A DNA stretch of 47,073 nt from positions 1 to 47,073 of the forward strand of contig JAFVNW010000013.1 in NCBI GenBank assembly GCA_017506175.1. Reading direction: 5' to 3'. Every line of letters starts with the position of its first letter. Within the stretch, counting starts at the first letter, position 1. Shown one piece after another: positions 39,667 through 45,232 of the stretch. A program made the translations under genes and the position numbers. Source of the stretch: Bacteroidales bacterium (GTDB lineage Bacteria > Bacteroidota > Bacteroidia > Bacteroidales > WCHB1-69). A model generated the notes under the pieces. The model saw nothing but the letters and a program-made list of their open reading frames with translations. It was not told the DNA's origin and searched no databases.

Positions 39667-39724
39667 AAAAATATTTTTAATTTTTGTCATATACGAACAA
39701 AAAGTTGTAATTTTGAAGCCGATT

Positions 39725-39915
39725 TTATGGTGAGAAATCCCTTGTGGATTTCGAGAGGGAAGCAGGTGAAAATCCTGCACAGTACCCGCTGCTGTAATCT
39801 CCACAATGCCTCAGACAAAGGTCACTGTCGCACCGCGATGGGAAGACGCCTGAAGGCGGAGTAAGTCAGAAAACCTGCCATAACATCTATCACGGTAAGC
39901 TCCGGGCATTGGGCT
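39725..39915 (+). promoter_or_regulatory. Cobalamin riboswitch
   Basis: All core blocks are present in order: GAGGGAAGCAGGTGAAAATC then CTGCACAGTACCCGCTGCTG (39753-39794), GTCACTG (39821-39827), GGGAAGACGCC (39840-39850), and the B12 box AGTCAGAAAACCTGCC (39864-39879). The family binds adenosyl- or hydroxocobalamin and turns off B12 uptake genes. The remaining about 100 bases before the next ATG hold a GGAGGA/TCCTCC hairpin (39971-39992) that may be part of the expression platform. Confidence 0.95.
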
Positions 39916-41174: not shown

Positions 41175-43556
41175 ATGAAAAAAATTCTATTGATTTTATT
41201 TGCTTTCTGCACTTTAATGGGTGCGGTAAAGGCGCAGGAAGATGCCACCATCTCCGCTGACCAGATTCAGTATTGGATTGGTGAAGGTGAAAACGAAGCC
41301 ATCCTCATCGTGCAATGGTGCGACCCCGAAATCGCTTTCGCATGGGGCTACCGCTTTGATGGCGAGGTGAATGTTCAAACCATGCTGGATGACATCACTG
41401 CTGAAGACAGCCGCCTCACTTACGAAGGCGATGCCAGTACAGTGAACCAGATTTACTACAATGATGATGACTACAGCTTGTCATTGACCGGCTGGGGCTG
41501 GATGTACAATATGAATGGATGGATGGCCGGCCTCGGCTACACTTCACAGATGGTCACTAATGGTGACGTGGTGAAATGGGGCGATGCAGGCTGTGCCACT
41601 GAAGTGGGCGACATGTCCGACTGGCAAAACTTCACCTATATCTGGACTACCGATGTCACTCCCGTAAGCAACCCGAACGATACCGAGGTGGTGGACGCCA
41701 CCATTGAGCCCGAAGACATCGAATTCTGGGTTGGCGAAGGTGAAAACGAAGTGGTGGTCGCCATCAGCTGGTGCAGCAACACCGAGGCCGCTTTGGCATG
41801 GGGCTACCGTTTCGACGGTGCTGCCACCGTTTTCCAAGCGCTGACCGATATTGCCGCCGCCGACAGCCGCCTCACGGTGGTGGGTGCCGCTCCCTCCAAT
41901 GTCACTTATCAGGATGGTGAGCTCGACCTTACCATGCAGCCCAACCCGAACGCTCAGTGGGGCGATCCCGATTACGATGTTCCGATGCACAGTGTGAACG
42001 GACTGATGGGGCAGAACGCAATGTCCGCCGAACCGATTCACAATAACGATTTTGTGAAAATTGGCGGTGTGGCCTGCGGCATCATGTCCGACGACTGGAC
42101 CACCATTTCTTGGACCACTCCCATCACTCCCGCCACGGTTCCCGTACCGGTTGACACAACCGATGAGGTGGATGCCACCATTTCCGCCGACCAGATCACC
42201 TATTGGGTAGGCGAAGGCGAAAACGAAGTGGTAGTGGCCATCAGCTGGTGCAGCAACACCGAGGCCGCTTTGGCATGGGGCTACCGTTTCCACGGCGATG
42301 CCACCGTTTTTGAAGCGCTGACCGCTATTGCTGCTGCCGACAGCCATCTGGCTGTGGTGGGTGCCGCTCCCTCCAACGTCACCTATCAGGATGGTGAGCT
42401 CGACCTTACCATGCAACCCAACCCGAACGCCCAGTGGGGCGATCCCGATTACGATGTTCCGATGCACAGCGTGAACGGTGCAATGGGCATGAACGCAATG
42501 TCCGCAGAACCGATTCACGATGGTGATTTCGTGAAGATTGGTGGTGTGGCCTGCGGCATCATGTCCGATGACTGGAGCACCATCTCCTGGACTACCACCA
42601 TCAATCCCGCCACTGCACCCACTGAAGTGGGTCCGAGCGACGAGACCTTCGACGGCATCGTGGGTACGGAAGGCTGCCAGGGTATCCATTGTCAAGATCC
42701 CGCTATCTTGGGCTGGGCTACCACCTGCACCATTGAACGTGGCCGCCAGGACATCACCACTCCCGGCGTTTTCGCCACCTACGGCACTGAATCTGATGGC
42801 GTGGGCGCCGCTACCGAAAGCACGGCCGACGTGGTCAGCTTGGGAGACTATGGTATCGCAGTCCTCACTTTCGACATCCCGGTTCAGAACGGTGATGGTT
42901 ACGACTTTGCCGTATTTGAAAACTCTCTGAACGACACCTTCCTTGAGATGGCATTTGTAGAAGTAAGCTCCGATGGGGTCAGCTACTTCCGCTTCCCCTG
43001 CGTTTCCAACTCACCCACTGATGTACAGGTGAACAACGGCGGCAGCGTGGATGCCTCCCTCATTCACAACCTCGCTGGCAAATACAAAGCTGGCTGGGGC
43101 ACTCCCTTCGATTTGGAAGAACTGGCTGGTACGGAAGGACTTGATGTGAACAACATCACCCACATCCGCTTGGTGGACGTGGTGGGCTGCGTTGAACCGC
43201 GCTATGCCACCCGCGACAGCCACGGCCACATCATCAACGATCCTTATCCGACAGCTTTCCACTCCAGCGGATTCGACCTCGATGGCGTTGCCGTGATGAA
43301 CGGTTGGAGGCCCAATGGCGTTGAAGAGAGCACAATGGTGAACCATACGCTTATGGTATATCCCAACCCGTGCCACAGCAACCTCACCCTCAACACCGAA
43401 GCCCATGATGTGGTCATGCTCTTCAACATGCAGGGCGCTCTGCTGCAGCGCGTAGTGGCTACCGACATCACGACCACCTTGAATATGCAAGACCTGCCCG
43501 CCGGCCTTTATATCGTGCGCTGCGGCAACCAGTCGGCCAAGGTAGTCAAACAGTAA
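41175..43556 (+). CDS. T9SS protein with triplicated domain, B12-regulated
   Basis: 793 aa. Signal peptide (KKILLILFAFCTLMGAVKAQ). Three tandem domains of about 140 residues (about 24-160, 174-318, 331-475), each beginning I-x-x-x-YWxGEGENE, then a W-C-x-x-E-x-A-x-AWGYRF core; copies 2 and 3 are nearly identical. A jelly-roll-like domain follows (about 495-715; GDGYDFAVFENS, FVEVSSDGVSYFRFP, ITHIRLVDVVG, SGFDLDGVAVMN). A T9SS type A sorting domain ends it (YPNPCHSNLTLNT ... LPAGLYIVRC). It is 30 bases behind the BtuG-like gene and so falls under the B12 riboswitch. The repeated GYRF domain may bind corrin; this is inference from the operon only. Confidence 0.8.
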   Translation: MKKILLILFAFCTLMGAVKAQEDATISADQIQYWIGEGENEAILIVQWCDPEIAFAWGYRFDGEVNVQTMLDDITAEDSRLTYEGDASTVNQIYYNDDDYSLSLTGWGWMYNMNGWMAGLGYTSQMVTNGDVVKWGDAGCATEVGDMSDWQNFTYIWTTDVTPVSNPNDTEVVDATIEPEDIEFWVGEGENEVVVAISWCSNTEAALAWGYRFDGAATVFQALTDIAAADSRLTVVGAAPSNVTYQDGELDLTMQPNPNAQWGDPDYDVPMHSVNGLMGQNAMSAEPIHNNDFVKIGGVACGIMSDDWTTISWTTPITPATVPVPVDTTDEVDATISADQITYWVGEGENEVVVAISWCSNTEAALAWGYRFHGDATVFEALTAIAAADSHLAVVGAAPSNVTYQDGELDLTMQPNPNAQWGDPDYDVPMHSVNGAMGMNAMSAEPIHDGDFVKIGGVACGIMSDDWSTISWTTTINPATAPTEVGPSDETFDGIVGTEGCQGIHCQDPAILGWATTCTIERGRQDITTPGVFATYGTESDGVGAATESTADVVSLGDYGIAVLTFDIPVQNGDGYDFAVFENSLNDTFLEMAFVEVSSDGVSYFRFPCVSNSPTDVQVNNGGSVDASLIHNLAGKYKAGWGTPFDLEELAGTEGLDVNNITHIRLVDVVGCVEPRYATRDSHGHIINDPYPTAFHSSGFDLDGVAVMNGWRPNGVEESTMVNHTLMVYPNPCHSNLTLNTEAHDVVMLFNMQGALLQRVVATDITTTLNMQDLPAGLYIVRCGNQSAKVVKQ

Positions 43557-43590: not shown

Positions 43591-43633
43591 TAGCGGGTTG
43601 TACTCTGTGACGGGTGCAATCCGCTATTTTTTT
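43591..43633 (+). terminator. Terminator of the B12 operon
   Basis: TAGCGGGTTG pairs with CAATCCGCTA (one G-T pair), loop of 16 bases, then seven T. It starts 34 bases after the T9SS gene. Confidence 0.82.
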
Positions 43634-43703
43634 CGGAAATACTCCTTTGCGTCTTGTAAAAAAACGAAGCGATATGAATAATTACGTGATTACGACTATT
43701 GCG

Positions 43704-43711
43704 TATATTTG
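43704..43711 (+). promoter_or_regulatory. Promoter -7 element just before the CRISPR-type repeat
   Basis: TATATTTG, ending 12 bases before the repeat, so a transcript would begin with only a few bases of 5' extension and then the repeat. Confidence 0.5.
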
Positions 43712-43723
43712 CGCCCGATATAA

Positions 43724-43770
43724 GTTGTGAATTGCTTTAATTCTTGTATCTTTGCAACCGCAGACACAAC
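43724..43770 (+). CRISPR. Solitary type II-C-like CRISPR repeat
   Basis: A 47-base unit beginning GTTGTGAATTGC and ending GCAGACACAAC. It has the length, GTTGTG start and internal GTATCTTTG block I associate with type II-C repeats of Bacteroidetes. Its ends are inverted (GTTGTG/CACAAC). Bases 43725-43744 are perfectly complementary to 43814-43833 in the tracrRNA-like element. Only one copy is present: no second repeat or spacer array was found in the window. TTG-N19-TATCTTTG inside the repeat is a good promoter. Confidence 0.7.
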
Positions 43771-43799
43771 GCTTGAACGTCATATTCAAAAAAAAGTAG

Positions 43800-43807
43800 T
43801 ATTTTTG
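43800..43807 (+). promoter_or_regulatory. Promoter -7 element of the tracrRNA-like gene
   Basis: TATTTTTG, ending 6 bases before the anti-repeat; fits TAnnTTTG with the RNA start near 43813. Confidence 0.6.
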
Positions 43808-43813
43808 CCGCAC

Positions 43814-43893
43814 AGAATTAAAGCAATTCACAATAAGGATTATTCCGTTGTGAAAACATCAAGTTCGGGGCCCACGCGGCCTCGTCTTTTTTT
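43814..43893 (+). ncRNA. tracrRNA-like RNA (type II-C)
   Basis: The RNA begins with a 20-base anti-repeat, AGAATTAAAGCAATTCACAA, perfectly complementary to the repeat 70 bases upstream. Next comes TAAGGATTATTCCGTTGTGAAAAC, the nexus-type sequence seen after the anti-repeat in type II tracrRNAs, with a small GGA/TCC stem. It ends with a terminator hairpin CGGGGCC-CACGC-GGCCTCG (43866-43884) and TCTTTTTTT. Promoter, anti-repeat, nexus and terminator are all present, so the gene looks intact. No cas9, cas1 or cas2 is in the window; the next gene is kamA. Confidence 0.72.
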
Positions 43894-43927
43894 ATCCCGT
43901 CACTACGCACTATTCACTAAATAGTTG

Positions 43928-43935
43928 TATCTTTG
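43928..43935 (+). promoter_or_regulatory. Promoter -7 element of kamA
   Basis: TATCTTTG, 55 bases before the ATG; fits TAnnTTTG. Confidence 0.55.
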
Positions 43936-43990: not shown

Positions 43991-45232
43991 ATGGCAAGTA
44001 GAAGAAAAGAATTATTTCCGAACGTTACCGATGAACAATGGAACGATTGGAAATGGCAGGTCAAGAACAGAATCGAGACCCTCGACCAACTGAAAAAGTA
44101 CATCCAACTGACCCCGGAAGAGGAAGACGGCGTGGCGAAATCGCTGCAAACCCTCCGCATGGCAATCACCCCCTACTATCTGAGCTTGATCAACCCCGAC
44201 GACCCGTACTGCCCGATTCGCCGGCAGGCCATCCCGACCGCCGCTGAACTGCACCAAAGCAAGGCCGATTTGCTGGATCCGCTCCACGAAGATGAGGACT
44301 CCCCCGTCCCTGGCCTCACCCACCGCTATCCGGACCGCGTGCTGCTGCTCATCACCGACCAGTGCTCGATGTACTGCCGCCACTGCACACGCCGTCGTTT
44401 TGCCGGACAACACGACTGCGAAATGCCAGGCGAACGCATCCAGAAAGCCATCGACTACATCGCCGCCACCCCGCAAGTGCGCGACGTACTGCTTTCCGGC
44501 GGTGACGCCCTGATGGTGAGCGACAAAATGCTGGAATCCATCATCCAACGCCTGCGCGCCATCCCCCACGTGGAAATCATCCGCCTCGGCACCCGCACCC
44601 CGGTCGTCTGCCCCCAACGCATCACCGACGACCTCTGCAACATGCTGAAGAAATACCACCCGATTTGGGTCAACACGCATTTCAACCACCCGAACGAAAT
44701 CACCCCAGAATCCAGCGAGGCCTGCGCCAAATTAGCCAACGCCGGCATCCCGTTGGGTAACCAGTCCGTGCTTCTGCGCGGCGTGAACGACTGCGTTTAC
44801 GTCATGAAGAAACTCGTACAACAGCTGGTCAGAATCCGCGTACGCCCCTACTACATCTATCAATGCGACCTCTCCATGGGCCTGGAACACTTCCGCACCC
44901 CCGTTTCCAAAGGCATCGAAATCATCGAGAACCTGCGCGGACACACCTCCGGCTTCGCCGTCCCCACCTTCGTGGTTGACGCTCCCGGCGGCGGCGGCAA
45001 AACACCTGTCATGCCCAACTACGTGATTTCACAAAGTCCAAACAAGGTGATCCTGAGAAACTTCGAAGGCGTCATCACCACCTACACCGAACCGGCCGAC
45101 TACAAAGACGAGTGCCACTGCGAAGAGTGCGAGAAGAATTTCAAGACCGAAGGCGTCGCCTCCCTGCTCAAAGGCGACCACCTCGCCCTTGAACCACAAG
45201 AGCTCGAACGCAGAAAAAGACACCGTAAATAA
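43991..45232 (+). CDS. kamA: Lysine 2,3-aminomutase
   Basis: 413 aa, the full KamA length. Radical SAM cluster motif CSMYCRHC (Cys125, Cys129, Cys132) followed by TRRR, SGGDAL (about 166-171) for SAM, the PLP-lysine region [15 protein letters not shown] (about 329-343), and a C-terminal Cys-rich CHCEECEK (zinc site). The enzyme uses SAM, a 4Fe-4S cluster and PLP to turn L-lysine into L-beta-lysine, the first step of anaerobic lysine fermentation and also a route to a compatible solute. None of the other lysine-fermentation genes is adjacent. It is longer than EpmB, so an EF-P role is less likely. It sits right behind the tracrRNA-like gene with its own promoter. Confidence 0.95.

Follow-up and report, generated by a model that had tools for sequence, protein, structure and literature searches.

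Why does a tracrRNA gene, together with a single CRISPR repeat, lie between two unrelated protein genes in a genome in which its Cas9 is not found? The question is raised by a stretch of 47,073 nucleotides, here called the window, which spans the entire contig C68 of a Bacteroidales genome assembly (G000; 2.46 Mb in 99 contigs, estimated to be 91.09% complete). Such a remnant could belong to a cas9 elsewhere, be left over from a lost array or have a regulatory role of its own. We consider it probable that a type II-C CRISPR-Cas9 locus of the Bacteroidota kind was deleted and that the remnant is its scar.

Table 1. Features of the remnant and of its surroundings; positions are those of the window.
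Feature	Position	Strand	Basis
T9SS-secreted protein gene; unrelated upstream neighbour	41175..43556	+	TIGR04183
Truncated copy (left part) of a short, dispersed, MITE-like element, ending at the CRISPR remnant	43625..43703	+	blast matches
Promoter-like -7 box TATATTTG, 5' of the repeat (predicted)	43704..43711	+	motif search with the Bacteroidota-type consensus
Single 47-nt II-C-type CRISPR repeat	43724..43770	+	47-nt alignment with the array repeats of G005 (same genus) at 87% identity
Promoter box TATCTTTG within the repeat (predicted)	43747..43754	+	motif search with the Bacteroidota-type consensus
About 15 nt that may be the beginning of a spacer; putative junction of the deletion	43771..43785	+	lies between repeat end and onset of similarity to the G005 tracrRNA promoter
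Predicted tracrRNA promoter region, -7 box TATTTTTG at 43800-43807	43786..43813	+	alignable with the G005 tracrRNA promoter
Anti-repeat	43814..43833	+	20/20 complementary to 43725-43744
Nexus hairpin of free tracrRNA	43827..43854	+	folding; model R1; conserved core of alignment A1
Intrinsic terminator (GC hairpin and T run)	43861..43893	+	folding
kamA, lysine 2,3-aminomutase; unrelated downstream neighbour	43991..45232	+	TIGR03820, 638.8 bits vs cut-off 525.4

The neighbours of the remnant are chromosomal in appearance. Downstream lies kamA, as the initial annotation had it, with a predicted promoter-like box of its own at 43928. The "B12 operon" placed upstream is loosely right: a cobalamin riboswitch is indeed present at 39711-39896, but the genes that it leads encode beta-propeller and T9SS-secreted proteins. 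The remnant sits between the T9SS-protein gene and kamA, against the cut copy of a dispersed repeat, and this order of flanking genes was not met in the relatives examined. The dispersed element is roughly 100 bp long and has blast matches at six other places of the same genome and at four in genome G008; the eight copies compared are 77-84% identical. Its inverted end, absent from the window copy, is reached in five of these eight, as judged by eye, and not in the other three. A collection of phage records yielded no match to the remnant. Among plasmid records there were three partial matches, one of which (H3) adjoins cas9, while another (H1) carries no annotated feature in the matching stretch.

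The tracrRNA gene is complete-looking, extends from about 43786 to 43893 and reads on the same strand as the repeat. The two complementary arms, 20 nt each and separated by 69 nt, pair without a single mismatch; when the 351-base region was shuffled base by base 100 times, no perfect inverted repeat exceeded 12. Folding of the tracrRNA tail (43811-43895) yields -23.3 kcal/mol (z=-3.8), that of the entire remnant (43724-43895) -51 kcal/mol (z=-5.3). The motif TAnnTTTG, which we take to be the Bacteroidota-type -7 promoter box, occurs at 43704, inside the repeat at 43747, 5' of the tracrRNA at 43800 and 5' of kamA at 43928. A covariance model (R1), built from 45 other tracrRNAs, each of them adjoining a cas9, and with the window left out, gives a full-length match of 82.8 bits at 43809-43900; this is the sole match in the window at E<=1. 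The invariance of the core in alignment A1 is in part due to construction, since most of its rows were picked by that very core. Rfam, at gathering thresholds, lists no tracrRNA entry for the window. Of the traits that characterise a Bacteroidota II-C tracrRNA, anti-repeat pairing, nexus and terminator are all there, but an adjacent cas9 is not. Judged by its sequence, the orphan type II-C-like repeat with its tracrRNA is genuine, and the parts that the initial annotation had listed (a single 47-base repeat, promoter box, perfect anti-repeat of 20 bases, nexus and terminator) are all recovered.

A partner for this RNA was sought throughout the genome. No cas9 was found on the contig or in the rest of the assembly with TIGR01865. 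The Cas9 of G005, a member of the same genus, used as query, and a six-sequence Cas9 profile (five from the same family, one from the same order), which is positive in 33 of 104 genomes of the family, also found none in the assembly. TIGR03639, the type II cas1 model, gives a single match in the genome, below cut-off and within a type I-B cas1 on contig C99. Both models are fit for purpose, as they score the G005 proteins at 512 bits (Cas9) and 318 bits (Cas1). The Bro-N protein that accompanies II-C systems has no match in the genome at E<=1e-20. A second repeat, searched for with up to three mismatches over the first 20 nt, does not occur in the assembled genome except for one place on contig C90; this place, with three mismatches, was dropped as chance-like, because it has no repeat-like continuation. 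A 31-base exact stretch of the repeat has no match in a collection of genome contigs. The assembled 91% thus holds neither a cas9, nor a type II cas1, nor an array of two or more II-C repeats. The search for cas9 and arrays that the initial annotation had proposed therefore came out empty. Its statement that no Cas9 lies within about 43 kb upstream or 3 kb downstream holds for the contig; the 3-kb side, though, simply ends with the contig. In relatives, cas9 is found on the upstream side, opposite to that end. The genome keeps another CRISPR type: a type I-B operon (L182, C99:18000-28074) with the genes cas6-cas5-cas3-cas8b-cas7-cas4-cas1, the array of which, located at the contig end, has repeats that differ from the II-C-type repeat.

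An intact counterpart exists in the same genus. In G005 the order, in the direction of the tracrRNA, is array, cas2, cas1, Bro-N gene, cas9, tracrRNA; array and tracrRNA read one way, and the four protein genes between them lie on the opposite strand. Its Cas9, Cas1 and Cas2 are confirmed by NCBIfam. The tracrRNA is located just upstream of, and divergent from, the gene of a 1455-aa Cas9 and shares 91% identity over 104 nt with that of the window, for which it is the best match outside the own genome among 60 genomes searched. The window sequence 3' of the stretch of about 15 nt aligns with the promoter of the G005 tracrRNA. If one takes out of the G005 layout the segment from an array unit to the tracrRNA promoter, the layout of the window results. 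From this correspondence we infer that a deletion took place and how the events followed one another. The ancestral locus would have been built like that of G005, with array and tracrRNA codirectional and the protein genes between them on the other strand. The deletion would have run from a point just within a spacer up to the tracrRNA promoter and taken away cas2, cas1, Bro-N and cas9, and the remaining array units would have collapsed or been lost, so that one repeat came to stand beside an intact tracrRNA gene. What is left would be a small and probably cheap RNA gene that has so far escaped decay; if transcribed, its RNA would presumably be without a partner. No relative with a cas9 at exactly the window site was found, which means that the deletion was not directly observed. 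What speaks against the scar is that every part of the tracrRNA is still intact and that products of decay are scarce, whereas scars of this kind, if old and common, ought to include more half-decayed examples. In 13 genomes of the genus, R1 yields three weak extra matches (E 0.04-0.84), possibly by chance.

Relatives display other stages of such losses. In a Paludibacteraceae MAG (L146), an array, a whole cas2 (TIGR01573) and a tracrRNA are preserved; cas9 and cas1 are both absent between them, and the genome has no cas9 match. In G010 the tracrRNA is accompanied by a complete Bro-N gene and by a stub of cas9 (about 20-25 codons); in G006 the cas9 stub is frameshifted and only a fragment of Bro-N is left beside the tracrRNA. 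These two may descend from one damaged ancestor, as both have a C where six linked genes encode the Leu of codon 5. In G115 a distance of 36 bp separates the tracrRNA from the start of a gene whose first 107 aa match Bro-N. In G007 a 47-nt repeat, with two changes from the 47-mer of G002, is joined nearly straight to the nexus, and most of the anti-repeat is gone. In a Bacteroides MAG (L075), inspection by eye suggests a shortened repeat that runs into the end of the anti-repeat; this is probably a fusion of repeat and tracrRNA. As for Bro-N, several II-C loci of the family carry its gene between cas9 and cas1, e.g., L024:15769-16593; in the wider sample it is present in 3 of 119 among the loci listed, 47 of which have a cas1 match. 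It is possibly an accessory gene of II-C loci.

How common are tracrRNAs without a cas9? In 104 genomes of the family, with tracrRNAs counted at E<=1e-4 and Cas9 at E<=1e-10, 33 have a tracrRNA; 28 have both, five the tracrRNA only and another five Cas9 only. The five without cas9 are the genome of the window, G006, G007 and G010, all of the same genus, and G115 (91, 76, 88, 95 and 83% complete, respectively). Within the genus, 8 of 13 genomes bear a tracrRNA and 4 of 13 a cas9. The cas9-less share, four of the eight tracrRNA-bearing genomes in the genus versus 1 of 25 elsewhere in the family (Fisher p=0.008), is a softer enrichment than the figure suggests, because G006 and G010 may share an ancestor and the genomes are 76-95% complete. 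A broader sample comprises at least 119 loci found by an exact-core pattern and 3 viral ones, hence at least 122. Among the loci listed, Cas9 homology lies within 0.7 kb of the tracrRNA in 106 of 122; of the 16 without it, five are in records with a Cas9 match and 11 in records without. These 11, again among the loci listed, comprise four with fewer than 400 bases on the cas9 side, L146 and six remaining ones: L075, L133, L139 (456 bases on the cas9 side), L159, L164 and L169, a virus record. Exact-core patterns miss tracrRNAs with a decayed core, and decay is thereby hidden. A looser pattern, applied to viral contigs alone, gave four records, the extra one (L213) with Cas9 adjoining. At L122 and L142, there is no cas9 in cas9-side flanks of 4.8 and 2.8 kb, respectively, and a Cas9 match is found elsewhere in the record.

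The virus record is a case of its own. It is a contig of 61 kb (IMG/VR 3300013936_000003) with genes for a phage-type helicase, a tape-measure protein and virion proteins, and with no Cas9 match in the record. It carries a stand-alone II-C tracrRNA (L169:1025-1055; L214, about 12.82 kb) some 230 nt from a phage integrase gene. Promoter box, anti-repeat, nexus and GC hairpin are present; a clear T run is not. Conceivable readings of this tracrRNA are an RNA anti-CRISPR, an attachment site and passenger DNA.

Is the RNA of the window kept by selection? The initial annotation had taken the perfect complementarity of the two arms as a hint that it is kept. This reading is not supported. In G005 the longest perfect run of repeat and anti-repeat is 22 nt, which makes the 20 nt of the window no more than inherited; in four other intact systems it is 13-14 nt, so that perfect pairing is not the rule either. 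Nor is the locus conserved, a finding that the initial annotation itself had named as speaking against it. At the kamA loci of 10 other members of the genus, the tracrRNA adjoins none, being either missing or located on a different contig. Homologues of the upstream T9SS gene exist in 11 of 12 other members, and none of the seven loci examined has a tracrRNA. A conserved regulatory locus was rejected for this reason. The comparison of G006 with G010 is of little help to the idea: anti-repeat and nexus differ at 1 of 47 sites versus 14 of 176 in stub and intergenic sequence (p=0.20), and the terminator is the most changed part (9 of 29). At fourfold sites of kamA, the two genomes differ at 47 of 196, compared with the mentioned 14 of 176; whether through constraint or through transfer, this stretch has thus diverged less than the genomes as such. 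Selective retention of the tracrRNA is neither shown nor excluded. Among the three options of the initial annotation, the leftover of a lost array or system fits best, with the window one deletion away from the layout of G005 and with other stages in relatives.

The rival explanations deserve to be weighed against this background. With an assembly that is 91% complete and in 99 contigs, there is room for a cas9 elsewhere in the genome, and a II-C system could work in trans, with a cas9 in the unassembled 9% using the tracrRNA of the window. That five of the 16 listed loci without nearby Cas9 lie in genomes with a Cas9 match is in line with it; at least two of them, L122 and L142, have at least 2.8 kb of flank on the cas9 side. 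Such separation is unusual, though, in view of the 106 of 122 listed loci with Cas9 close by, and the genome search came up with no second repeat, no II-C cas1 and no Bro-N. We regard a system in trans as quite unlikely. Two stretches might also have been wrongly joined at the remnant by assembly or binning. The MAG is fragmented, the element on the left is multi-copy, and the flanking gene order has not been met in the relatives examined. Yet the copies of this element are merely 77-84% identical, and a repeat fused to a tracrRNA is seen separately in G007 and, by eye, in L075; foreign contamination is not indicated, as the best match outside the genome, among the 60 genomes searched, is to the same genus. 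An artefact is extremely improbable.

The most interesting alternative is a functional RNA that has been retained. A transcript starting at 43704 would comprise repeat and tracrRNA and could fold on itself like a single-guide RNA, with a 20-bp hairpin, nexus and terminator; in principle, it would occupy a Cas9 that comes in with a plasmid, a phage or a transferred II-C locus and block its loading with real guides. By analogy, the logic would be comparable to that of RNA anti-CRISPRs and of long-form tracrRNA. Promoter boxes, perfect pairing and terminator are all present, and 43716-43860 folds with a z of -4.5. II-C systems circulate in the genus, one of them with the 91% identical tracrRNA; the enrichment of cas9-less tracrRNAs in the genus, the low divergence of their stub and intergenic DNA between G006 and G010, be it from constraint or recent transfer, and the stand-alone tracrRNA of the temperate-phage contig also accord with a decoy. 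Against it stands, apart from the lack of conservation, that no repeat was found by the tracrRNA in G006, in G010 or in the 3-kb locus of G115, and that most of the anti-repeat is gone in G007: no common design is kept. The p of 0.20 for anti-repeat and nexus does not help either. For the transcript from the predicted promoter within the repeat (43758-43893), the advantage in folding over shuffles is moderate (z -1.8), and if transcription starts at the usual distance from the promoter box, no more than about 7 nt of 5' overhang would precede the repeat. A decoy is thus quite unlikely. Still bolder, and in our opinion highly improbable, is the generalisation that stand-alone tracrRNAs are a recurrent, selectively kept by-product of cas9 loss in Bacteroidota, serving as decoys against incoming II-C systems, with the same trick played by a temperate phage beside its integrase.

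The probable deletion scar, then, has consequences for the reading of genomes. A tracrRNA gene can outlive its cas9, and the relatives display different stages of type II-C loss. To deduce a Cas9 system from a tracrRNA or a repeat alone would mislead annotation in such genomes. The question posed is whether orphan tracrRNAs are inert or interfere with a Cas9 that arrives by transfer.

The single components of this picture are already known in the literature, as far as the consulted parts of the respective papers go: the Bacteroidota II-C tracrRNA (PMC9067536), type II arrays without cas genes (PMC5491264) and solitary repeats as RNA anti-CRISPRs (PMC10651486). In titles and abstracts of the open-licence literature, no paper on orphan tracrRNAs was found. 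According to the consulted portion of PMC9067536, the tracrRNA model CRISPRCas_38 comprises 578 of 599 members from Bacteroidetes, is exclusively II-C and is typically located upstream of cas9 at a distance of not more than 100 bases. Taxon and position in relatives suggest that the tracrRNA of the window is of the same kind, if set alongside by description; it differs in having no cas9, and that work, in the sections consulted, covered cas operons and associated arrays, not isolated ones. The orphan CRISPR2 of Enterococcus faecalis, as described in the consulted part of PMC5491264, is likewise a type II part without cas genes and can be reactivated once cas9 is supplied. There, however, the array is kept, and cas9 and a predicted tracrRNA were added; the window keeps the tracrRNA and one repeat.

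Other parallels concern what a solitary repeat or a long RNA may do; here too, we refer to the consulted portions of the sources. In II-C arrays, the repeats have promoters of their own, and the first repeat together with upstream transcription gives rise to an extraneous crRNA without a proper guide (PMC12080349). For the repeat of the window, promoter-like boxes are predicted upstream and inside, but the extraneous crRNA comes from a repeat in the array of a II-C system, and that of the window does not. RNA anti-CRISPRs resemble it as solitary repeats behind a predicted promoter, away from cas genes; they are mimics borne by viruses or prophages, the tested one of which acts on type I-F, whereas the window has an apparently chromosomal repeat plus tracrRNA (PMC10651486, PMC11656645). 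The scaRNAs share the idea that remnants of arrays may turn into new RNA units, yet the search for them covered strains whose type II loci were putatively complete (PMC6199352). Finally, tracr-L unites a repeat-like strand and an anti-repeat in one RNA, which would be possible at the window as well; it is described from some II-A systems, the cas operon of which it represses, whereas in the genome of the window no cas9 promoter that a guide segment might match and no type II cas operon were found (PMC8616872).
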